Shown here piece by piece: positions 4,853 to 59,695 of a stretch of DNA of 64,000 bases. The notes below the pieces were generated by a model. It saw nothing but the letters and a program-made list of their open reading frames with translations, searched no databases and had not been told where the DNA came from. The translations under genes were made by a program, and so were the position numbers. The DNA is from Chrysoperla carnea. Its lineage: Eukaryota > Arthropoda > Insecta > Neuroptera > Chrysopidae. Positions within the stretch are counted from its first letter, which is position 1; each line of letters opens with the position of its first letter. The stretch spans positions 103,286,368-103,350,367 of the forward strand of contig NC_058337.1 of the NCBI RefSeq assembly GCF_905475395.1. The letters run 5' to 3'.

Positions 4853-5180
4853 CGGTATACAGAATATTCGATTTACATCTAGGCATATAAATATCACGAG
4901 TATGACAGAATACATGCGTTAAGCAATGTATCTAAATAAGAGGTATTATGTACATGTGTTGAAGCTTCGATATGCGTTGAGATAGTTGTAAGGCGCTTGG
5001 AGAGTGGGAGTTTCTTAATTGAATAGATGAACTACAACAGATAAGCCACGATACAAGTCACTTTTGCAATTTCATATAACACCTATAATACCTCTTACTT
5101 AGATGCATTGCTTAATGCATGTACTCTGGCATACTCGTGATATTTATACGCCTAGATGTAAATCGAACATTCTGTATATG
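4853..5180. repeat. Long hairpin A (arms of about 95 bp)
   Basis: About 4855-4950 pairs with the reverse complement of about 5085-5180 with few mismatches. Both arms contain 'cgatttacatctaggc', 'tataaatatcacgagtatg' and 'taagaggtatta'. The loop is about 135 bp. It is the first of three consecutive foldbacks downstream of the 4370-4762 exon. It could be a foldback MITE or the DNA form of a structured RNA. Confidence 0.9.
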
Positions 5181-14300: not shown

Positions 14301-16909
14301 TTTTATCTCATTGTTTGATAAATGAATCATAGATATTTTGATAATGACTCATGATTTATGACTCACACACGCCTGAACCGGTTGAAATAATATTATTGTC
14401 CAATTTTTCAATTATTTTGTAGATTGTGAATTTAATTTTATTTAAACATAATTTGTTTAACGAAAAATATTAGATTTATAAGAAAAATTTGTTCGATTTG
14501 ATGATGATATAAATAATTATTTGTAAAATTTCTTACCGAAGTCTCATTTTGTGATAAAAATACATGCCCTTCTTGACGTAATTTATAATATAATGCAGGT
14601 ATTAAATTTAATTGTGGATCATTTTTAAATTCATTCTCTGACCATTTCTTTAATAATGCTTTTAATCGTAATTGTACAGTTTGATGTGCACGTCCTAATA
14701 ATTTACGAAATTCATTTTCAAATTCACGTGATGCTACTTCTAAATGGAAATTTTTACCACAATTATTAACACATGCATCTAATAACTAAAAAAAAAATTA
14801 TATTTATTAATTAAATATATAAATATTTATTTAAGAATGAGAAGTAGGGATACATTTCTGATACTGTTTTATCGCTCATTGATTCGTTTACCTTGTATAT
14901 ATTAGTGGAGCTAAATTATCACTTATGGTATTGAGGAACAGGAAATTAAAATAATCGATTTTCAGTTAATGTTTTTTGTCTTGATAAAAAAGTACGCAAA
15001 ATAAAGCATTAGCGACGAAGTAATATGTTCTGTGGCAAAGCAAACATCTCTTTCGAAAATCGGACAGACTTTTTCGCTGGGACAAATTGTTAGTGCTCAG
15101 TTTCTAACTTGCCTAAAGTAATTAAGAGTCAGAAGTCACGAAACACCAGTTTATTTGACTATTAGACAAATCTATTCTAAAATATTGCCTGAAATCGATC
15201 CTAAAAATCGGTCTTTGTAAGAATTTGAACGGTACTATGGATCTAATCATCAAATGAACCAGATTTTTGCATTTTTTGGGTCAAATAGAGGCTCCACATT
15301 CGAGAGCCAAGCCATTTTTTGTTTCGAAATTTTGACTCATAAAATAATTAATATAATAATTTCAATCATACTTCCTGAAATCGTATATGAAAATCTATAC
15401 TTTGGAGAAATTTTAAACGGGATATCTAGAATATACTCACCGTTACTGCTTGTATTGCCACATGTGGATCATTATGATTTAATCGTTTTATAATGGAACG
15501 TAAACAATCTTTAGCATTGACTGGATTATTACCAACTTTATCACATATATCCATAATCAGACCCCAATCATCTGTTGTATTCTTTTCATTCGTTGCTCTT
15601 TCTACACAATAATTACATAATTAAATTATAATCAAGTCAGTCGCTATTACTTTGAAATCAAATCTTTTCAGTTTCATTTCGATCCTCAATTCTCTTTTAA
15701 CTGAACAAAGCGGGACCTTAGTGTGAGTAATAAAAATAAATAAAAACTCCACAAATCCAAATAAATTTGACCCAAGTAAAACAACCTGGGACATATAAGA
15801 CTTTGTAGGAATATATTAGTCGATCTGTTTTACATGTATAGATTTTGAAACTATTGATTAATTGATTCAAAAAGGAACATATTTGAATCAGAAAACTACT
15901 CCTTTGTTATATCGTCAATAAAACAGCTTAATATCATCAGTGAATTATTACGAAGAAATTTAAAACATTTAAATAATATTGTTTGAGAAATGAATACAGA
16001 TTTCATTGGGTTTTGTGAACATATTGTCATTCAATAGAGCTTAAAATGATTGTTGAATAATAGGGTATTATCTTTAGTCAAAAATAAATAATGAAATTTG
16101 AAAAAAATTAAAATTTATGTAAAAATATACTTAAATATTCTGATTTCGAGTCATAAAAGCACTTTTTTCTTTTATAATATTAAAATTAAAAATCGTAATT
16201 TTTAAACTGTAAATCACGTGACCTAAAACGCGAGTAAGCCCCGCTGTGATGTCATAGCGGTATGAGTCATAGACCATCAGTTAGTTCAGTGTCGACAGCC
16301 GGGTATAATATATCCATAGATAATAAGTATTTATATTTATTATAATCAGATGTCTATGAATATATCTGTCAAACTTATTTGTGTTATTTCGTATAATGAT
16401 ACCCATATTACCCATCAAATTGGATGCCCGCGTTTTTGATAGTTTATAAAAAGTTTAAAATTTAATTTAATTTTTTGGCGTATTTTTCCGAAATAAATTT
16501 TTGGTAGTTTTTTATTAGCAAAATCAACATTTTGAAGTGCTTTTTCAAAAATAGTGGAATACCCTATTATAAGGTTGATACAAAAAACACATCTCGATAT
16601 CTATAATCTTTTGTGAGGTTTACACACAAACACAAGTGGAAAGAAAGAAAATTTCTGTATATCTTTATTTATCTCCTTGTGTTTTAATAAATTCCAAGGA
16701 TCATATTTGCATATTTATAATTATAAGTGGTTTTTAAAAAGTCTTTCTTTATGTCAAAAACTGAACAAAACATCAGTTTTGACTTTTCAGTTTTTGTTTA
16801 TTCGCTTTAATTTTATTAAGAAAACTTATGGCCCCAATAAAATGGTAATATTGCATTGTATCTTACCAACATCTGCATCAAATGGTGACGAAGATCCAAA
16901 TAAACCCAT
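11301..16909 (-). CDS. Stam: STAM, ESCRT-0 signal transducing adapter molecule, complete, six exons
   Basis: Exons (minus) are 16867-16909, 15441-15601, 14537-14785, 12968-13828, 12541-12734 and 11301-11469. All have GT-AG junctions and together give 1677 nt, 558 aa. A VHS domain covers residues about 1-145 ('DVERATNE', '[14 protein letters not shown]', '[19 protein letters not shown]', '[13 protein letters not shown]'). A ubiquitin-interacting motif lies at about 180-195 ('[15 protein letters not shown]'). An SH3 domain covers about 233-288 ('[15 protein letters not shown]', 'DPNWWKG', 'GLFPANFV'). A helical GAT/coiled-coil segment of about 80 residues follows ('[22 protein letters not shown]'-like). 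The C-terminus is a P/Q-rich tail of about 150 residues. STAM pairs with Hrs on early endosomes to sort ubiquitinated cargo to multivesicular bodies. The start at 16909 agrees with the family N-terminus (short 'MGLFG..SPFDADVE'). AATAAA follows the stop at once (about 11290). Confidence 0.96.
11705..12450. repeat. Foldback-family copy in STAM intron 5
   Basis: 11705-11740 ('acagtaaaagatgtaa') and 12235-12445 ('gaatgtgtttcttag', 'caataaacaataaattgtt', 'acaagttgcc') match the foldback at 5488-5997. About 450 unrelated bases lie between the matching parts and the right arm is truncated. This shows the family is mobile and older than the 5.5-kb copy. Confidence 0.7.
15602..16866 (-). other. STAM intron 1, with a CLEAR-like E-box and a GC-rich patch
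   Basis: This is non-coding by splice logic. At 16213-16222 the minus strand reads GTCACGTGAT, a full match to the CLEAR consensus GTCACGTGAY. Just beside it, 16241-16260 is a small palindromic 'ccgct...agcgg' block enclosing TGATGTCA. The patch is GC-richer than the surrounding intron. It could be regulatory DNA or the end of a transposon. Confidence 0.45.
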
Positions 16910-18986
16910 TTTAAAATGTTAAATATTATATTGAATAATATGTAAATGTATGTGTTGATGTTTCAAGTTCTGTTTATAATTTATTTTAATAATCATGTAA
17001 ATGTTACTACAATTAATTTTAAATTACCAAATCAGTTTATTTAATCATTCTTCATATAATTATGATTAATAATATTATTAATTTATTTGTATATCAGTGC
17101 CACTATCAAAGTTTTTATTAAATATATTCTACTTATTCCTATGACTATCAGTAATGTATGAACTAAATGACATTTGATCAAAAAATCACTCCACTCCCTC
17201 TAGTCATGACTATTTGTAATCTGTTACCTTGTTACCAACTGTATCAAAATATTACATATCATGTTGTATTTATTAATACCAATACAATAAAAATAAATAT
17301 TTAAATATGTTCCCGAAATGTTTATTCAAACCATTCAAACACTAACGAGCGACATTGTACACGTTAAATTTTTTGTTTGCTTTATTATAAAAATAGTCTC
17401 ATTATTTTATATTCTCGTGATCGTAAAGTAATGACGTCGAAAATATAAGCGAAAAATATATACCTAAATTCGGGACGCACATTTATCCAATTTTTGTAGC
17501 TCACATTTTTTAGATTCAAATAATTTGTAATTACCTTCTAAAAGAACTAAACTATAATTAAAAAATTATCGTTTAAACTGCAATTAATTAAAAACCTTTC
17601 TCCGCAGCGAGGGTGGGAGTAATGGAGAGTATAGAGTAAGTTGCCCAGAAAACTAAACCATTTGAATTAGTCATCCGTTACCCCTTGTATGAAAGCTAGA
17701 GGTAAAAATTTTAATTTTTCAATTCTAATTCTATTTCATTCTCCAGCAAAATTAGTATTCAATTTAATTTTTTACTTTTTACTTAATATAAGCAGTATCT
17801 ATACTTTAAATTTTCTTTTGAAAAGTTTCTATTAGCATCTTTTTTAAAATAATGTATTTTGCCATTTCTATAGTAATATTAAATGAATGAAATAATTTGT
17901 TTTTAAAAATAAATTTAATCAGTTATTAGTATTTTATAATCATTTTATTTACGTGAATTCGTATTGAAATGAAAATGTTTGATTAGGGACGGGCCTCAAA
18001 ATTAATTCATAAGTCATATCATGGATTTCAATTAAACTACATTATTTGACGGTGATTGATTACAAATTATACACTTTATCGATTTATTAAATTAATAATT
18101 GCATTCGGTTATGACAAGTATGTGTATTTTTTGAAGTAAGTTGTTCTTGATTTATTTTAATCTAAAGTTAAAAGTATACATACAGTAAATAAAATCATTT
18201 GAGTTCAAAGAAACGATCACTCTTTCGATTAAAAATGGTTGTTAAATTATTAAATTAAAGATAATGAAAAAACTACGAAAAAAGCAGATAACCTAATTTT
18301 TGGTATTTAGTGCTCTTTTTCGATTTAAAAAAAGATTCATTTAGAAAATTTAACTTTTTAAATTAAAATCCAGATTGGTCGTGGAATAACTTTGTTTTGC
18401 TAATTATGTTTTTAAATCTGATAATAATCGTTAAGACTGTATTTTGAAAGGCAAAGTTTTATACAATTATGTAATACAAGTTGCCTATAAAACTAACAAC
18501 AAAGAGTACCTAGTTCCAATCATGTTTGTTCTTTAATAAGGAATAATTTTATAATTTTAAGCGTTCTTCTATCCCTTACCGACTTCTTCCTGTTTAAAGC
18601 GAATGTGAATGTAAAATCACTTACATTGAATAAATTTGTAGAGTTTTCAGCTTCCAGTTCCGATCAAAAGTGGCGTTTGTAGACTTAATCTCATTACGAG
18701 TCATAGATGGAGGAACATTTAAAATTAGAAAATTGTTCCTTATAAAATAACCAATAACTTTTTTTGCCGGAAAGATTTTTTGGAAAACGAACTTTTGGCA
18801 GAAATTAGTTACAAAAAAGTATTTGAAAATTAGTTATTTTATAGGTAATATTTTTCTAATATAATTTATTCCATTGGTTTTTAAAAGTTATGAGATAAAG
18901 TTTGTCAGAACCAGAAGCGGAAAATATGTCTCATTGATCTGGCATACTTACTTAGTAACTAATGAGCATTGGCTTTTTGATTATAG
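16910..18986. other. Divergent intergenic region: STAM 5' flank (-) and upstream DNA of the micropeptide exon (+)
   Basis: STAM starts leftward at 16909 and the first micropeptide exon begins rightward at 18987. The region should therefore contain STAM's promoter and 5' UTR, and any first exon of the micropeptide gene. I could not identify that first exon. There are no long ORFs and no repeats that I recognise apart from simple AT tracts. Confidence 0.45.
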
Positions 18987-19190
18987 ATTTCAAATTATAA
19001 TTTACACAAATTATTATTGTATCTACTAATCATAAATACAACAATGGCTTGTTGGAAATGGGTTGGTCTCCTATTATTGGCCCAATATGTTTTAAAGCGA
19101 TGTGCAAAAGTTTAAATATGTACCCATCATCAATATTTAAAGTGATTTTTTTTTTTTTAAATAAAACTTATTTTATGAAATCTTAAAATG
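18987..19190 (+). CDS. Micropeptide exon, copy 1 (23-aa ORF at 19044-19115)
   Basis: An acceptor 'ctttttgattatag' ends at 18986. The ORF starts at ATG 19044 in a strong context (ACAACAATGG), ends at TAA 19113-19115, and AATAAA lies at 19160-19165. The peptide begins MACWKW, continues VGLLLLAQYVLKR and ends CAKV. It has a short hydrophobic core of about 12 residues between a Trp/Lys N-terminus and a basic tail, compatible with a tiny membrane-associated peptide. A second copy 683 bp downstream keeps the first 19 residues with one V/I change and six synonymous codon changes, which indicates protein-level selection. In this copy the frame is open back to the splice site, but similarity to copy 2 starts only a few codons before the ATG, and copy 2 has an in-frame stop there. 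The shared ATG is therefore the likely start. I recognise no known family, and its location in the cell is not known. Confidence 0.72.
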
Positions 19191-19661
19191 TAATTTATTC
19201 TTTAATATTGAAGTTATGTATAAAATAAGATGATTGATTAGAATTTTGGATAAAAAATATCGAAAAATTAACATATTTTTTTCAATTATTATTTAACACT
19301 CGTCGCAAAGTATATTTAAGTTTCAATTTCTATCAAAAACTTTTAATTATCAAAAGCAGGTGTTTCGTCATTCTAAACTTTGCTTGAAGTTTCCGTAAAA
19401 TACATTTTGACTGATTGCTTCACAAAATTCCTTTTTACAAACCCTGAGCCAGCGACTAATTTTTGGAACCAATTCGGTTAAGTTTTCAGATAATGCACTG
19501 AAGATTCGTGAATGCCAGTGCGGTACCGCTGTAACTACTTCTTTTACGAAGTATATTATTATAACATATCTATTATCAAAGATAATAAATGAGAACTCTA
19601 GGATTTTGGAGCATTCTAGGATTAATCAGGCAAAATACTAATGCCATTGTTTTGATTGTAG

Positions 19662-19860
19662 GTCCAAATCCACATATCACTGTTATACCTAATTTTATAC
19701 GAGTACAATAGGTAATAAATACAACAATGGCTTGTTGGAAATGGATTGGTCTTCTTTTATTAGCGCAATATGTTTTAAAACGTGCGAGATTTTAAAATTA
19801 TGTAACATAATATCTAAAGATATTTCATTTTTTAAATAAATTAATATGAAATAATTGAAC
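19662..19860 (+). CDS. Micropeptide exon, copy 2 (22-aa ORF at 19727-19795)
   Basis: The acceptor 'ttttgattgtag' ends at 19661, the ATG lies 65 nt into the exon, and AATAAA is at 19835-19840, 40 nt after the stop. This repeats the layout of copy 1. An in-frame TAG 12 nt before the ATG (19712-19714 region) confirms the start. The peptide is MACWKW, then IGLLLLAQYVLKR, then ARF. Differences from copy 1 in the first 19 codons are GTT/ATT (V/I) and synonymous CTC/CTT, CTA/CTT, TTG/TTA, GCC/GCG, AAG/AAA and CGA/CGT. The tails diverge completely. The two exons may belong to tandemly duplicated genes or be alternative last exons of one transcription unit. The 5' exons are unknown. Confidence 0.72.
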
Positions 19861-19869
19861 TGTTTACAT

Positions 19870-20170
19870 TATTCTTTATCATTGAGATTTAGTTCAAAAT
19901 ATGAATCAGTAAAATATATAATAACTACGTAGCCTGGACAAAATGTGCCCAATTCTTGAGAAAAATTAGAAAAACTACTAATAATAATAAGTTCTCAGGA
20001 AAACATCATCATATCCGTGGTCTAACGCTAATATGCTAGGCGCAAAAGCTAGTGGCCTGTTGGTTAATTCCCGAAAATTTCTAGTTATTTATCTTCATTA
20101 TATATTATTTCTGAAAAATATTTCAAATTTTTAAAGCAGTAACAAAATAAATTAGAAGATCTTAAAAATA
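19870..20170. other. Short intergenic stretch between micropeptide copy 2 and the GST 3' end
   Basis: No gene is seen. The convergent 3' ends of a + strand gene (AATAAA 19835) and the minus-strand GST (AATAAA on the minus strand at 20172-20177) bound it. Confidence 0.5.
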
Positions 20171-20217: not shown

Positions 20218-28850
<8,633 letters not shown>

Positions 28851-29758: not shown

Positions 29759-32700
29759 TTAAAAAGGTAAAGATGCCATAAACATATTTTCAATAAAGGG
29801 TGGTGGCGTAACTAAATCCTCTAATTTTAAATAAAATATCCTCTGTAAGCCTTGTACAGATAATGATCGTAACTCCGGTAATTTCGATAAAATTTTACTA
29901 AAATAATGTTGATTATTAATATTTGTTGTATTATTAAAATTACTTTGTAAATATTCTTGTAAAATATGTATATATTTCATTTGTAATTGTTCAACTTTAA
30001 ATGGTTGCTTTAAACCATGCCGTTCCGTGATTACACATAAAACACATAATATAACAAATATATCTAAATTTAATGATAATTGTGATAATGTTATACAAAA
30101 ATCATAAATTGATAATAACCATTCATCACCAAACGAACGTAAACATTGTTCTTTATTTAATACTAAACCAGTATCAAAGATAATATTTGTATCAGATGAT
30201 TTTAAACGATATGCTAAACGTAATACAAATAATTCTAATGATGCTGATTGAAATAATAATTCTTGATCATCCGGATCTAATTCCGTTTGAAAACCGGGAA
30301 TTTTCATAACAAATTCTTTAATAACATCAATACTTGTTGTTAATAACGTATAAAATTGTTCAATTTTATCTGATTCTGTTGTTATTAATTGTAATTTATT
30401 TGTTCGTTTATTACTATCATCAGTATCATCATTATCACTTGTATTATTATCGTTTATATTAATATTGTTATTATTATTATTATAATTATATTGTGAGTAA
30501 TCTAAATTTAATAAATTTGGTGATGTTTCGATATGTGCTTGTACTAATTCTTGTAAAATTGATAATGATGAGGATGATGATGAAGATGATGATAAATTAT
30601 TATTATTAACTACTAAATTATTGTTATTTATCGTTGATGTTGTTGTTGTTGGTACTGATGATGATGATAATGTTGTTGATGAAGAAGTTGATTGTTTTGG
30701 TTTTGATGGTAAACGTCCACGACGTCCTTTCAATGAATCGGTACGTACAACTTCTTTAACCATACCAACTGATAAACATTTTTGATAACGACAATACTGA
30801 CAACGATTACGTCGTCGTTTATCAACTGGACATTGTTTATCAGCTAAACATACATATTTACTACCCTTTTGTACGGTTCGTTTAAAGAATCCTTTACAAC
30901 CTTCACATGTTCGTACACCATAATGTTGACATGCGGCTTGATCACCACATACAGCACACAATTGTGATAATGTTGTTGTTGTTGTTGTTGATGATGATGA
31001 TAATGATGATGAGGAGGAAGATGATGCTGTTGTTGTTGTGGTTGGTGTCGATGATAATGCGGTTGTTAATAAAGATGATGATAAAGTTGATGTTGTTGTC
31101 GTTGTTAACGATAATGTTGTATTTGATAATGATAATGTTGGTGATGAACATGCTGATGAATTATTTGATGATGATTTATATTGCTGTTTATATTGTTGTT
31201 TGTGTTGATGCTGTTGTTGTACGGGTAATGATGCACGTCGTTGCTTGTGATGTTGAGGTCGTAATGATAATAATGATGATGATGATAATTGTTGCTGTTG
31301 TTGTTGTTGTTGTGGTTGTATAGGTAAATTTGTGAGGTTATTGTTACTATTATTTATAAAAGGAAATGCTGGTAATGAATGATATGTATTTGAACTTGAT
31401 GGTGATGTTGATGATAATGGTAATAATTGTTGTTGTTGTTGTTGATCATTATTACACATTATCACATTATTACTCATTATCACATTACTATTATTATTAT
31501 ATGTTATCATATCATCACAATTATTATTATTATTGTTGTTATACATAGATTGCTGTGATAAATGAGGTTGTTGTTGTTGATGATGATGATAATACATTGA
31601 TGATGCTGAAGCATTATAAGATGATAATGGTGATGATGAAGATGATGATGATGAAGGTGATGGATTATTACTCATATGATCGTACATATTTTGTGATTGT
31701 GGAACTTGATGATAATGATGTGATGATGATGATTGATAATGATTTTGTTGATGATGAATTTGTTGACGTTGATGATGATGATATGATGATATATTTGATA
31801 TTGATGGTGTTAAATTTAAAGGATGTTGTTGTTGATGGTGAGGGTATAGCGATAATGGAGGAGATGATGTTTTTGTTATTTTTGGTGATGAAGTAGGTGG
31901 TGGAGGTGGTGGAATTGGCGGTGGTGATGAATGATGTTGTTGTTGTAACTTTGATAACAAAGCTGATGTTGATAGTTCTGTTGATGTTGTTTGATTTGTA
32001 TAACAATCTTCATCCTCCATTTTAAAACCAAATTCAGATAATTCAATGTCACTTGAATATTGACGTATGGAATACGTCTCTTGAAAACTTGGTAACAACG
32101 ATGATAATAGCAATGAAGTTGTTGATGCTGTTTCTGTTGTTTTTGTTAATGGTATTGTTGTTGTTGATGCTAATATTTGTTCGATTTGTTGATTATCAAC
32201 ACTTTCAATACTATCACATGAATGATTGTCTATAATTGCTGTAGTTGCTAATAAATTATTGTTATTGTTATTATTAAATAATTGTTGTTGTTGTTGATAT
32301 AATAAATTATCACAATCACTTATATATTCTTCCTCATTATCACATTCACAATCACTATTATTATTATTATTATTATTATTGTTATTGTTTATATTTGTTG
32401 CTAATAATGTTTTTGTTGTAATATTATTAAAAATAACATCAGGAAATGGATCTAAATCATTATCATTATTATATTCATCACTTAATATTGTATCATCATT
32501 TGATAATGATAATGATAATGATAATGTTGATGTTGTTGTTGGTACTATTGTTTTTATATGTTGTTGTTGTTGTTGTTGTTGATGATGATGTTCATTTATT
32601 AATAATAAATTATCGTCTTGTTGTAATTGTTGTTGTTCATTTAGTTCTTCAAATAAATTTAATGAATTAAATGATGAATTATTATTCTGTAAATAATAGA

Positions 32701-35700
32701 AAAAAAGAAATTAGGTATATAGTAATTTATTTTATAGAATGAATTGATTATTTTATTATTTATAGGAGTTTCCGAATTTTCTATTTCTGTATATATGTAT
32801 ATACATTTTTCTTGATAGAAAGTTATTGTTTTCACCTCAAAAAATGAAATCGATAACTTTAATAAGACTATAATACGAAAATAACGCTTAAAAAGGTATG
32901 CATATTTGTATGTGCATGAGTGTGCCTGCCTGTCGTTCTGTGGCTAAATTTTTGGGCTAACTACCATTTAAATATTTCAATTAACTTTAAGTTTTACTGA
33001 TATTAAAGTTTTTTGAGGAATCGATGCGATTTGATTGGGAATCAAAGTGGAACGTAGCAAAGTTCAGTTTTGTGAATGATGAAGGAACAATTAGTTTGAA
33101 ATTTCTTTATTAATACTCGCAACTCCAAGAAACCATAGATAACACTGTAATGGCGAATGAAGAGCATATAAATTTCTATCTCCATGGTAAAAACAAACAA
33201 AAAATAATAGTAGAAATTCCTTACAGTGCTTTCTGAAGTCGTGGATTATAAGTACCTATAGACCTACAGTTCTAATAGTACCTAGAAATTTTTAAGGACT
33301 TTACATGTCTTCTTACTGCTTGTTTGTAACAGCAATTATTAAGGCTGTACGAGCCAAGGCAATTTTAAATAAAAAGCTTGATTTATTTTTTATGAAGTTA
33401 GATTAGGTCTAAATCAATGCTGAAAATTTTAAGGAGGGAGAGGGGTTGCTCGATTATTTAAATAAATTATCGCCTTCAAATGTAGGCATATTCATCCTTG
33501 GTTTTGAGGTAAAACGGATGATGGATAATATGTTTTCATAGATTTGTCCAAAACTAGTAGAAATTAAAAAAAAACTATTTAAATTAAAGTTGAAACCTTA
33601 ATAAATTATTCAAAACAAAAAAAAAACCCGCTGTGTCCGCCTAAGGATGTATGAGCAAGGTAGTGGGGACACAAATTTAAAAAAATATATTTTTTCCATA
33701 TGGTGAATTATGTTATATATTGACAAAATAATGCGAAAGGTAGGAATAAAAGTTTTTAATGTCTGAAGTAATTTTAAAATATCGCAATTGAAATTTTTTT
33801 TGATTATTTAGCTTTCGATATTTCGAAAACCAAGCAGATATCGAAAAATTGTATTCATATTTTCTGTCTACATTTTTGAAGTTATAAGAAAATTCATCAT
33901 CAAAGTTGAAAATAAGGTAAAATTAATTTCAACCACAAGTCTAAAATTGCTTTGGTGCTCGTACTTCCTTAACTAGGTACATTTCAATCCGATAGATTAT
34001 CCATTATTTCTCGAGAGCATACAAAAATTTGGATTTTATCGGCTAATAATAATAAAATTAATTGAAATTTTGTTAACATAAAATTTGGCCTATTCTTATA
34101 TTTGGAACAATGAATTCATCCATGTATGTTATCAGCTACGGTCCTAGAGTAGAGCGAGAGGAGCGGTTCCTCTAGGCTCCAGATAGGGGCGTCAAAATGC
34201 CAAAAGTAAAAAATTATTTTGGTCAAAACTTAATTAGTTTACAAAAAAAAAAAAAATTATTTTATATAAATTAAATAAGTTTTGATAATTGAAATAGAAG
34301 TTGATTTATGAAAAAGTTGGTAATTATTATTAAAAGCGTCGACCAAAAGGCGCCGAAAGACAATCTCACTCAACTATGATTAAGGGCTAGGGCCGGCGCT
34401 GTTGGTTATATATTAATGAATATATATATATATAGGTATTTCATTTGACTAAATCAGAAAGTGATTGATGTTTACCCTTAAAGACCATTATTCTCACACA
34501 TGGGTTTTTATGTTTTGATACATGAACATTGAAGTTTAAAAACTATTGGTTGGTTGATATAAATGTCATGCGTATATATGTATAAGTATATTATTGGTTA
34601 CATTATTAATATAATACGGTATGTTGTTATGGTTACATTACATACAATTGTAACTATTGGTTCTAAACTAACAAAGTACTAACAATTAAATAAATAATAA
34701 TCATATTAACCATATACTTTCTACTGGTTATTATTATTATTATTAAAATTAATTATAATTATTAATATATGTATATGTATATGTATGTATGTACTTCAGG
34801 CTAGATTTTAATCTTTATAATTTAATATATTTAATGTAACGCTATTGGCAAAAATTAACACTAATGAACAATAAGAATAATGTTATTAGGGTGAAAAAAA
34901 AACATGGTTGCTCATTTCGATCGATTTTTTCAATTAAAAGTTTATTCAGTTTAAATAAACTAATGAGTGAAATTTACAAAATTTAAAAATCCCTCGACAA
35001 ATGCGATTTATTCTTTGTAAACCGATTTTTGGAAACTTAGCTATAAAATGTTCTCAATCAAGCCGGTTCGACTGTTTAGGGGCTACGATGCCACTGAGAA
35101 TCACACAGATAAACACTTTAAACTTATAATACTTCTTCTTAAATCAATATCAAAGTGCTTAGTGAGCTATCATTTTTTTGGACAAATTTTTGAGTTAACT
35201 TTGTTCTTTTGAATTATTGTTTTTTACCTAATTATTTTTCCATTTCTTTTTTCAAAATGAATTGAGCCAGGTTTATTTTACCATTCAATTCCATAGAAAT
35301 TATGTATATGTTAAAATTATATGTCATGTCTTTTAAAACTGAATCGATTTTGAAAATCATCGCCAACTTTTTTGTTTTTTTGGGTACGGAATCCTAAACA
35401 CGTACTAAGAACTAAAATAGAACTAAATAGCTAAGAACACTCTCTGATAAATTACCTTTCAAATGAAACCAAAAAACTTAAAATCGGTTCATCCATTTAG
35501 GCGCTGCGATGACACAGACAGACAAACACACAGACACACAAAAGCGGTCAAACTTTTAACACCCCTTCTCTTTAGTTCGGGGGTTAAAAATAGATTTCAT
35601 ACTTTTCAATTTCTTTCAAACGTTTGTTAAAGATTTTAAAAAAAACTTTGAAATTTCGACTTTTTTAAAACGATAAAAGCATTCAAAATTTAAATTTAGA

Positions 35701-38632
35701 TTGGTTCAAAACATTCTTTCATTTTCTGACTTGAATAGGAAAAGATTAAATTAAATTGCGAAAAATTATTAAAAAAAATTATAAATTGTATTTTTGTTTA
35801 AGAAATTCTATTACTAGTCGAAAACGAGATTGCTATTTACAATTTCAAAAAATTTAATCGTATGTTTTTAACACGTTTTTATTAGCTGCATACGTATGTT
35901 AGTATTTATCGAAAACTTTGATCATGATTTTGACCTTCGTCAAAACATCGGATTAACTCAAAATTTGGCACATTTATCAAGGATTGATGACAAAACAATA
36001 ATTTATTTGATTATTCTGACCAGGATTATCAGGAATAACGACTTCCATATATGAAAATATTTACATTTATTTGCGCTTCCACCATATTTATACGAAATTG
36101 ATGAGAAATAAATAATAGTGCAAAAAACTAAAAATCACCAAATAAATAATAGTTTAAAAAAACTATAAAACACGCTTTTGTAACTAGCTGAACTAAAAGG
36201 TAAAAAATAATTTCTTTAAATTCAAAAAAAAAAATATATTTTATCGTAAAAAGGCGTGGAGTGCTTTGGTAAGATATTTTATAATGACTTTACTTTTACC
36301 AATATCTGTCTATAAAATAAAAGGATTTTTTTGAATTTAATTAAATTATTTTCTACCATTTAGCTCACCTAGTTCCAAAAGCGTGTTTTTTAGTTTTTTT
36401 AAACTATTATTTTTTATTGCTCGATTGCAGTTTTGAAAAACTAACATCTAAGTAGATATTTTTGTTTTAAATTAATTTTTCTAAATTTGGCAACTTGTTT
36501 TTTTAAATTTATTTGATAAAGGAATCAAATTCTATTAAAACTAGATAATTCTAGAGACTGCCGAAAAGTTTGTCCTGGCCATAAATAACATTAGATGACT
36601 GGTTATATTTCTATGAATCTTTATCCCGTAGTATCTAATCCACAAAATTAAATTAATTTAATAAAAATGGGATATCCCTTTTGTACAAAATCTAATCATT
36701 TTTATAGTTTTAAAAATTTTTCATTGATTAATTAACTAATGAACCATTAATAATTTATTATATAGCTGTATTAATATTAATAAATGACTAATTCATAGGC
36801 ACAAATATTATTTTTATGAGTCATTATTATTAATTAATTTTCTTAATTTTTTGAATGAATTTTGAATGTGATATTTTTATAATAATATTAATGAACTATA
36901 GGTATTATTTATTCATTAATATGTTGTTATGCTAGATAATTAAAAATAAATTGGCAACACTTGATAATTAATTATAAAGAGGATTAATTTAACAGGTGAC
37001 AAGCCGATAAAAATAATATATTTATTCGATAATAATCAAATTTGAAGATAAAAGAAGTTATTGATTATAGATAATCTAAAATTCTAAGCTAAAAAAATAA
37101 TTAAATATCGCCTACAATTAAAAATAGCTTTGTTTTTGGATTCTAAGATGTAGGTACTGTATATAAAACTTTATGGAACCTTATAGATCCTTCATTAATA
37201 ACTATTGATTTCCCGATTATCGAATATACAGTTTTTTTTAATTGGTTTTAAATGCTTTTTTTTTTCTACTTTTGCTATTAGAATATATTTTTATCAACGT
37301 TTAAGGTATTCAGTTATCGAAAATTACTTGCAAAATGGTTGGTTGTTATTCTACAAAGTTTCAATCTATTGTAAAAATCTTCTTGGGTTTCCTGACCGTT
37401 AAACGGAAAAATAACACTTTTTGCTATCTGGAATATCGTGTTGGAAGTAACCTTATTCACGACAACAATTTGGACTGATACACACTCATTAGTTGTTATA
37501 AATTGGTTTCACAATGATTGGAGTATAAGTTTAATAAAAATTTATTTGCAAGTTTTGAAGAAATAGTGTCTAGCGTTGAAATTGAATTATATTCCTTTCG
37601 GAAAGTACGGTTTTAGGTTTTAGATTTTTTTATCGATTTTCATTTCCTGATATAAACAACAAACGGTTATACAGGATGAACCATTTTCTATACACCTAAA
37701 TATCTCCTCTTGTAGTTAACCAATCAAAAAATAACTTAAACAAAAGTTTCAGAATTTGATGGAGGATATCATGTTCTGACATCAGTTTGGACCTAGTTTT
37801 TGAGATTTCTTCAATAGCCAATTTAGATCCTAAACGGTAAGAGATATATTAACACTTTATATTAGAAAGCTAATCCTCATAAAAGAGCTAACATTATTGC
37901 ATTTAATCGAACGAAAACATGCTTACTACACGGGAAAATTTTTTAGCCAAATTTCGCCAAGGGCAATAGAGAACATTCGCCTGTGTCCATGAATTTTTTT
38001 TTTTATTAAATGAAATAATGACATATATTTAGTTGCATTTCCTCCGAAAGCTAACATTTTCCGAAAAAGTGTTTTAACAAAAATTGTTAGTTTTTTTATG
38101 AGGATCAACTTTCTAACTTAAAGTGTTAATCTATCTATTTACGATTAGGATCTAAATTGACTATTAAAGAAACTCGAAGAACTAGGCTCAATTTGATGGC
38201 AGAACATGATGTCCCCCATCAAACTCTGAAACTTTTGTTTGATTGGTTAGCTATAAAACGAAATATTTAGGTATATCTAAAAAATCTCAAATCATGTTTT
38301 CCTAAAAAAATAATATTATCCTAGAAAATGAGATACAGTTTACAAAAATTTTAATCAATATTTTTCATATCTAATCCATTAATTTTTTCATCATATTATA
38401 AGTATACTTACTTGATTTGATGATGTCGATGATTGTTGAAGTAAAAGCATACTTGATCGATCTATAATTTTTGTTAATGTTGTTGTTGTTGTTGTTGTTA
38501 TTGTTGCTGTATTCGATTGTTGTTGTGTTGTTTGATTATTTATTTCACAATCACAATCATTAATAATTAATTGTTGTTGGCCTTTAACAATTATCTGTTC
38601 ATGATTATCTTCTTCAAAGATAATATTTTGAT
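29759..38632 (-). CDS. Hr38: Hr38, NR4A-type nuclear receptor, 3' two coding exons (5' end not identified)
   Basis: Exons are 38412-38632 and 29759-32686 (976 codons including stop), joined in phase 0 across a 5.7-kb intron. The large exon begins with about 575 residues of Q/N/S/T/H/P-rich low complexity. The DNA-binding domain follows from Cys at 30956-30958: '[15 protein letters not shown]', P-box 'CEGCKGFF', then '[17 protein letters not shown]'. The NR4A-specific C-terminal extension is '[18 protein letters not shown]', which reads AAAGGTCA-type NBRE sites in family members. The ligand-binding domain covers about residues 770-975 of this exon and ends '[15 protein letters not shown]' and 'MFMASLPF', diagnostic of NR4A. 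NR4A receptors are constitutively active, nuclear, and induced as immediate-early genes. The 5' exon starts mid-codon after an AG, so an upstream exon may exist. An internal Met at 38448-38450 ('MLLLQQSS') is an alternative start. Confidence 0.94.
33341..33976 (-). mobile_element. MITE with TTAAGG...GTACGAGC terminal inverted repeats, copy 1 (Hr38 intron)
   Basis: The left tip 'ttaaggctgtacgagcc' with 'aaggcaatttta' is mirrored at the right ('taaaattgctttgg' then 'tgctcgtacttccttaa'). Ends carry TTAA. The inside matches, in reverse, the repeats at 43930-44585 and 48926-49500. An extra internal tip-like 'taaggatgtatgagca' at about 33640 suggests the full element was built from two units. No transposase is present. 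Confidence 0.8.
34140..34400. repeat. GC-richer repeat remnant in the Hr38 intron
   Basis: Blocks such as 'ggagcggttcctctaggctcc', 'ggcgtcaaaatgcc', 'aaggcgccgaaag' and 'gggccggcgctg' stand out from the AT-rich intron. They resemble edges of old transposons, but no second good copy was found here. Confidence 0.35.
35350..35590 (-). repeat. Interspersed repeat, copy 2 of the 425-760 family
   Basis: It is the reverse-complement match of 425-620 ('aaaatcggttcatcc', 'atttaggcgct', 'acagacagacaaacac', 'acaccccttctc'). Confidence 0.7.
36065..36425. repeat. Foldback element in the Hr38 intron (arms of about 84 bp)
   Basis: 36147-36230 and 36331-36415 are inverted repeats containing 'aaacacgcttttg.aactag' and its complement. 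A nested shorter inversion ('ggtaagatattttata' / 'ttttaccaatatct') lies in the centre. 'tttgcgcttccaccat' sits just left of it. The copy at 51010-51415 is related. Confidence 0.8.
37691..38273. repeat. Foldback element close to the Hr38 5' coding exon (arms of about 190 bp)
   Basis: 37691-37886 pairs with 38094-38273. Both arms include 'aaaagtttcag' plus 'tttgatgg', 'tcatgttctg', 'caatttagatcctaa' and 'taacacttta'. The loop is about 207 bp. The right edge is only 140 bp from the exon's donor site. A partial copy is at 42880-43000. Confidence 0.88.
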
Positions 38633-43929: not shown

Positions 43930-44585
43930 TTTTTTAAATTGACTAATTTTCCTCATAATTAAAGTAGTACAAATCCCAAGGAAATTTTAGATTTTTTTAG
44001 GTTGAAATTATTTGTACTTGATTTTCAACTTTGATGATGAATTTTGTTATAACTTCATGAATTTAGGCGAATAAAATTTTTCGATATCTATCTTCTTTTT
44101 AAAAACATCGAAAGCTAAATAATTTTACAAAACTTTCAATTTCCGATATATTAAAAATTACTCCAGATATCGTTAAAGATTATTCTTACTTTTCTTATAT
44201 AGTCCAGTTATAACATCACCATCAAAATTGAAAAGGTATATTTTTTAAATTTGTGTAACCACTGTCAAGCTCATACATCCTTAATTAGTCGGACCCAATG
44301 GTTTTTTTTCCAATAATTTATCAAGATTTTAACTTTAATTTGAATAGTTTTTTTTTTAATTCCCACCGACTAGTTTTGGAGAAATCTATGACAACATATC
44401 ATCCATCTATCGTTTCCCAAAAGACCAATTTTAAATATGCCTACTTTTGAAATCATTTATTTATTTAAATAATCGGGAAATCCACCCCCTCCCTAAATTT
44501 TTCAGAATTTATTTAGAGTTAGTCTTCATATAAACAAAAATCTATCCTTTTATCCAAAATTCCCATGGTGCTCGTACATCCTTAA
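43930..44585 (+). mobile_element. MITE of the TTAAGG/GTACGAGC family, copy 2
   Basis: It is the reverse-complement match to 33341-33976 over most of its length. It ends 'atggtgctcgtacatccttaa' and has an internal tip-like 'gctcatacatccttaattag' at 44270. The two poly-T runs and 'ccgactagttttggagaaat' are shared. No ORF is present. Confidence 0.75.
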
Positions 44586-44589
44586 ATAC

Positions 44590-44972
44590 ATATATTTATA
44601 TTTTTTTTTAATTTATATTCCTACTATCGTGCTCATACATCCTTAATTAGTCGGACCCAAGGGTTTTTTTTGTTTTCAATAATTTATAAAGGTTTTAACT
44701 TTAATTTAAATAGTTTTTTTTTTTTAAATTTCCATCGACTAGTTTTGGAGAAATCTATGAAAACATATCTACCATTTTACTATACCTAAACCATCTACCG
44801 TTTTACTATAAACCCAATGTTAAATATGCTTACTTTTAAAGTGATTTATTTATTTAAATAATCGGAAAACCTCCCCTAAAATTTTCAGAATTGATTTAGA
44901 TATAGTCCAACTTCATATAAAAAAAACCAAGTTTATATTTAAAATTTCCTTGGTACTCATACATCCTTAAGT
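44590..44972 (+). mobile_element. MITE of the TTAAGG/GTACGAGC family, half-length copy 3, tandem to copy 2
   Basis: It begins at the internal tip ('cgtgctcatacatccttaat', about 44629) and continues collinear with the second half of copy 2 to 'ggtactcatacatccttaa'. Copies 2 and 3 form a head-to-tail array of one and a half units. Confidence 0.7.
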
Positions 44973-58869: not shown

Positions 58870-59695
58870 ATATACTAGAGATGTGCTAACCACCTCCAAT
58901 TGTCCAATTTGAGGGAAGATGTGATTAGCATCTGCACAGGCAGTCAAGCAGGACTCAAAGCGCTATCAAACTATACAATGTCATCGCAACTCGTCAAGGA
59001 GACTAGAAACAGTCTAAACAACCTGGCGAGGCACAATAAAGTCAATATTACCTGGATCCCCGGACACTCTGGTTGGAACGGTAATGAGAGAGCAGACAAG
59101 CTGGCCAAACTGGGAACCACCATGGCTCCCACTCAATAAAAGCTTGCGAGGATGCCATACCAAGAAGGTCTTAACAGATTAGAAGATAATCTGAAAAACC
59201 AACAATTAAAGGCATGGACCAGCTACGAGGGAGGGCGAATCGCCAAAAGCCTGTTGGGTGAAGGAAACTCGCTCGGTAACAGAGCCGAGGAGATCTTGAA
59301 ATTAAACAGAGCTGATATTAGAGTCATCGTTGTTACTCACAGGGCATGATAACCTGAACAAGTTCCAACATCAGATTGGAAAAAGACAATCTCCCGCGTG
59401 TGACAGATGCGGAGAAAATTCAGAAGAAACATCGATCTACTTTCTCTGTTACTGTCCGGCGCTCATACAGCAGCGAAGGAAATGGTTTGGTCCGGCCATA
59501 ATCGAACCAGAAGAAATTAGGAAACTCAGCGCTAGGCAGATCCTGGGTTTCAGTACATCAGTTGGTTATAATAGCCACTGAAAAGCGTAACGGGGATAGA
59601 GTACAAGGGTCTATTTGGTTAAGTGCGCTGAACCATTGCTTCGAGACCCGATGCTCGAGCATGGCCCGCTAACCTCCATACTCATACTCATACTC
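58870..59695 (+). mobile_element. 5'-truncated, decayed non-LTR retrotransposon (RNase H and C-terminal zinc-knuckle part)
   Basis: The fragment encodes the end of an ORF2. The RNase H-like region is 'ICTGSQAGLKAL' followed by 'NITWIPGHSGWNGNERADKLAK'. A downstream Cys/His segment reads 'CDRCG...CYCPALIQ'. The reading frame is broken by a TAA at 59137-59139 and by a frameshift near 59335. The Asp normally present in the 'T-D-S-Q-A' motif is Gly, so RNase H is catalytically dead. The 3' end is a short (ACTCAT)n-type tail (59678-59695) in place of poly(A). The insertion is bounded by a 12-bp target-site duplication, AATGTCGAGATT, at 58858-58869 and 59696-59707. An RNase H-bearing clade (I/LOA/R1-like) is likely. 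Confidence 0.92.

Follow-up and report, generated by a model that had tools for sequence, protein, structure and literature searches.

A tandem pair of very short open reading frames in a green lacewing genome, with a substitution pattern that points to selection on a putative membrane micropeptide

Introduction

Functional peptides of about 20 residues evade both annotation and homology search. A duplicated pair within one genome carries a built-in test of selection. On the plus strand of a 64-kb stretch of green lacewing DNA, which we analysed whole and call the window, an earlier note had described two matching open reading frames (ORFs) that encode peptides of 22–23 amino acids. Do these ORFs encode a peptide that selection has kept, or are they debris of local duplication? 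The pair passed the test, and we consider it probably a real, unnamed membrane micropeptide, as judged from the sequence of this one genome.

Results

We found both ORFs on the plus strand as described, together with the layout attributed to both copies (Table 1). The acceptors end at 18986 and 19661, the leaders measure 57 and 65 nt, both starts read ACAACAATGG, and an AATAAA follows each stop. The spacing from stop to AATAAA is 44 bases in copy 1 and 39 bases in copy 2. Both intron ends contain ACTAATG, which we take to be branch-point-like. The earlier note had also stated that the peptide stands alone. Copy 2 shows that it can, as an in-frame TAG precedes the ATG; in copy 1 the leader contains no in-frame stop as far back as the acceptor, and a stand-alone peptide is therefore evident from copy 2 only.

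Table 1. Coordinates of the two copies and their flanks in the window
Feature	Positions	Strand	Remarks
Copy 1 intron end with ACTAATG, T-rich tract and acceptor TTTTTGATTATAG	18927–18986	+	homologous to 19602–19661
Copy 1 leader, 57 nt, open in the peptide frame	18987–19043	+	only the last 12 bases detectably conserved
Copy 1 ORF, MACWKWVGLLLLAQYVLKRCAKV plus stop	19044–19115	+	used for codon comparison
Copy 1 3' flank, AATAAA at 19160–19165	19116–19245	+	homologous to 19796–19925
Copy 2 intron end with ACTAATG and acceptor TTTTGATTGTAG	19602–19661	+	homologous to 18927–18986
Copy 2 leader, 65 nt, in-frame TAG at 19709–19711	19662–19726	+	
Copy 2 ORF, MACWKWIGLLLLAQYVLKRARF plus stop	19727–19795	+	used for codon comparison
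Copy 2 3' flank, AATAAA at 19835–19840	19796–19925	+	homologous to 19116–19245

The codon list given earlier proved exact: across 19 codons, 12 are identical, six differ silently and one is V/I. The copies thus differ at seven bases in these 19 codons, with one difference at a first position, none at a second and six at third positions, and 18 of the 19 core residues are identical. The comparison was right, but its extent was too short, since a single in-frame codon gap aligns 22 codons up to the stop. This longer alignment, in which the 3-base gap was placed after the data had been seen, shows seven silent and three replacement differences (V/I, K/R and V/F).

We then placed seven substitutions at random in the 19 codons in 100,000 simulation runs and counted those with at most one amino-acid change. 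Such runs made up 0.00069 of the total when starting from copy 1 and 0.00043 when starting from copy 2; the simulation for 22 codons gave 0.0038 and 0.0022. The dN/dS estimates, which are rough because a single pair of sequences was compared, were 0.022/0.845 (NG86) and 0.024/0.958 (ML) for 19 codons, and 0.060/0.824 (NG86), 0.068/1.99 (ML) and 0.073/0.418 (YN00) for 22 codons. As controls, we took the three independent ORF pairs that ranked next in the window, all of which derive from inverted repeats. These pairs, of 19, 19 and 15 codons, had three, five and four amino-acid changes for four, eight and four base changes, respectively (12 for 16 in total). The control pairs are rich in replacements, which indicates that origin from a repeat does not in itself produce silent changes only. 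Purifying selection on the duplicated micropeptide, as proposed in the earlier note, is therefore supported by the substitution pattern and the three control pairs, for this single pair of sequences. By the same single comparison, the ORFs look like smORFs, having fewer than 100 codons and differences that are mostly silent. Gene conversion could also maintain the likeness of the copies, which counts against the selection reading.

DNA outside the ORFs had been described as strongly diverged. We observed this in an ungapped register; with gaps allowed, it applied to the leader and to the DNA further upstream, but not to the last 60 intron nt or to the 130 nt after the stops. Gapped local alignment at the exact boundaries, compared with 1000 shuffles, revealed that both of these segments are homologous between the copies, with scores of 36 for the intron ends (shuffle mean 18.9; 0/1000) and 98 for the 3' flanks (shuffle mean 54.5; 0/1000); global alignment of the intron ends gave 2/300 shuffles. 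Homology of the leaders was not significant (149/1000 shuffles, or 654/1000 without the last 12 bases, which are identical in both copies and lie directly 5' of the ATG), nor was that of the 340 nt before the intron end (618/1000). With approximate boundaries for copy 2, the 2 kb upstream of copy 1 compared with the inter-copy DNA gave 72/200 shuffles, and the region 70–300 nt after the stop gave 22/500. The ORF alignment has one gap, 3 nt long, where shuffled ORFs average 9.8 gaps. The 15 gaps in the 3' flank alignment are no evidence by themselves, as shuffled flanks average 16. The homologous splice and poly(A) surroundings indicate that the duplicated unit comprised at least a terminal exon, and both copies have kept the frame.

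In a six-frame scan of the 64-kb window with the 19-residue core, the two copies reached scores of 105 and 104, against 37 for the runner-up position; the scan found no third copy, leaving two in the window. A 79% repeat at 16501–16524 was considered as a third copy and rejected: it lacks the MACWKW start, has stops in the translated frame and gave no six-frame match. Among the 529 ATG ORFs of 18–40 codons in the window, the pair ranked best of 139,313 pairs. Direct repeats (at least 45 nt, within 4 kb) also form 22 families in the window, and other repeats, too, gave rise to short matching ORFs in the ORF-pair comparison. Because local duplications are so frequent here, duplication of the micropeptide exon is unremarkable per se; what sets the pair apart is the coding pattern rather than the duplication.

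The best 12 residues of the peptide form the core W(V/I)GLLLLAQYVL, preceded by Lys and followed by Lys-Arg, and the peptide has a net charge of +4. On hydrophobicity scales, the water-to-octanol sums of the two cores were −7.6 and −8.2 kcal/mol, with low hydrophobic moments of 0.17 and 0.15, respectively. By composition, the core would fit a short helix that spans the membrane or lies buried in it better than one at the surface. Its 12 residues are short for a membrane span, which counts against the membrane reading. A 22-residue chain leaves the ribosome before co-translational targeting can act, so any membrane insertion would likely follow synthesis.

The earlier statement that no named family matches the peptide agrees with our searches, all of which have low power at this length. 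Pfam returned no families for either peptide at E values up to 10, the PDB had no match to the copy 1 peptide, and the exon frame of copy 1 (42 residues) yielded no candidate in a protein collection. No full-text literature match was obtained with the start and core strings of the peptide, and topic searches of the literature listed none of this sort for Neuroptera. A 23-base degenerate pattern had no matches in viral contigs, and Rfam had none in the window at gathering scores.

The GC content of the window is 27.2%. The two copies lie between two minus-strand genes. Upstream is a gene with UIM and SH3 domains, whose first residues, read from about 16909, resemble those of STAM. On the other side, a glutathione transferase gene occupies 20218–21720; it agrees with Chrysoperla carnea record P0125 at 201 of 210 positions, and the other nine are a gap introduced by our joining of the exons, with the residues readable in the window. 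This match assigns the window to C. carnea or another green lacewing very close to it. Within this gene, beside the end of exon 1 (21183–21421), are repeated blocks of 45 and 53 nt (93% and 87% identical; 121–128 nt apart) that also contain a duplicate of the GTAAGT donor region.

Several other features were noted in the window. An imperfect inverted-repeat cluster (49 nt, 82%; 44 nt, 77%) lies at 18525–18872, just upstream of copy 1. MITE-like inverted-repeat pairs occur at 1834–2156, 4915–5119 and 37782–38196, with matching short ORFs in their arms, on opposite strands. An HR38/NR4A receptor at 29759–32710 on the minus strand, with long runs of Q, S, N and T, is encoded by a single 983-codon open frame. 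Among the 120 relatives listed, which include no C. carnea HR38, none exceeds 57% identity to it, and it sits on a long branch (0.55) in the tree. A non-coding-looking tandem repeat with a spacing of about 360–390 nt covers 44237–44970, with related pieces at 46.2–46.4 and 48.9–49.5 kb. An RNase H fragment (58879–59139, plus strand; Pfam PF00075, E 1.6e-9) probably belongs to a retroelement. ARAGORN found no tRNA genes.

Discussion

The reading that we favour, to which we give about an even chance taken as a whole, is that a micropeptide locus in the green lacewing underwent an old tandem duplication, either of its terminal coding exon or of the small gene in full. Each copy would be spliced to an upstream 5' exon, start at its own ATG and use its own poly(A) signal. 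Each would encode a complete peptide of 22–23 amino acids, and purifying selection on the peptide would have kept both. After synthesis, the peptide may enter the ER or mitochondrial membrane as a short helix and there bind a membrane protein or complex and modulate it, in the manner of other membrane micropeptides of insects.

A variant of this reading has the same peptide made from a single transcription unit with a choice of two last exons, in which a shared 5' exon upstream of 18.9 kb would be joined to copy 1 or copy 2 and the resulting isoforms would differ at V/I and in the tail. It is attractive because detectable homology starts only about 60 nt before the acceptors and the homologous flanks are about 360 nt apart, a short interval in which to fit another promoter and 5' exon; each exon also carries an AATAAA of its own. 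Upstream homology may, however, have decayed, and a search by donor consensus did not find the 5' exon. The donor candidates were all weak (the best at 17613, 18136 and 19518), and we therefore claim no 5' exon. Weak candidates also occur between the copies (19360 and 19518), which makes two compact genes possible. The 2.8 kb scanned contain four TATAAAA motifs, which are hardly informative. The choice between two genes and alternative last exons is near even, and we regard the single transcription unit as a serious contender that falls somewhat short of an even chance. A bolder version, which we offer tentatively and think rather unlikely, is that the pair represents a lacewing or wider insect family of membrane micropeptides of about 22 residues that has no known relatives; duplication of its last exon would let a single gene choose between two peptides that share a membrane core and differ in their basic tails.

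The remaining explanations do without a selected micropeptide. The ORFs could be accidental ones in repeat or mobile-element debris, their likeness being due to a recent origin or to gene conversion and not to selection acting on a peptide. The abundance of local repeats and the matching short ORFs that other repeats yield speak for this, yet the silent-only pattern is unlike that of the three control pairs, the window has two copies only, the splice and poly(A) context was duplicated along with the ORF, and two inter-copy ORFs that we tested had no Pfam match; we judge debris unlikely. A basic start followed by a hydrophobic stretch resembles a signal peptide, and here 11 hydrophobic residues follow a basic start, so that the ORF might open the coding sequence of a longer secreted protein whose remainder lies on unrecognised exons. 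That seems very improbable to us, given that KR comes immediately after the core, that both copies stop at most five codons after KR at homologous places, and that the 3' flank with its AATAAA is homologous. Scarcely to be expected, finally, is a conserved RNA element instead of a peptide: the 12 identical bases before the ATG, outside the ORF, speak for such an element, but six of the seven differences cluster at third positions and Rfam had no match at gathering scores. We set aside a role as a uORF or stalling peptide because no long plus-strand ORF that is homologous between the copies follows them.

If expressed, the favoured candidate, a selected micropeptide in two copies, would represent, in Neuroptera, a membrane micropeptide of very small size that bears a signal of selection. 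The locus also suggests a simple genome screen, for neighbouring ORF pairs whose differences are nearly all silent. Judged by analogy to sarcolamban and Sloth1/2, the most likely role of the peptide would be to tune a membrane protein or complex.

Known insect systems offer three comparisons. Sarcolamban A and B are Drosophila SERCA-inhibitory membrane micropeptides present as two related copies at one locus (PMC9338278, PMC11475943), and the lacewing pair likewise consists of very small putative membrane peptides in two related copies at one locus. Sarcolamban is made from a single polycistronic transcript, whereas the lacewing copies are two exons, each with an acceptor and an AATAAA. The luminal C-termini of sarcolamban are YLIYAVL and YAFYEAAF (PMC9338278); the lacewing tails, KRCAKV and KRARF, are basic and, compared by eye with those sequences, their K and R depart from the uncharged or acidic aromatic C-terminus of the sarcolamban type.

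Sloth1 and Sloth2 are Drosophila mitochondrial tandem smORF paralogues with one predicted membrane span each (PMC9681215), and the lacewing ORFs are similarly tandem paralogous smORFs and candidate membrane peptides. The Sloth proteins are larger (a size of 79 aa is given), only 27% alike and encoded on one bicistronic transcript with a 5-nt spacer (PMC9681215), whereas the lacewing peptides have 22–23 aa and share 18 of 19 core residues. Drosophila 'dwarf' smORFs of about 20 aa are reported to be less conserved and to lack indicators of peptide function (PMC4359375); the lacewing pair has their length, yet, unlike them, its peptide appears constrained. The lacewing peptide is new by sequence, and its putative mode of action is that of known smORF membrane micropeptides.
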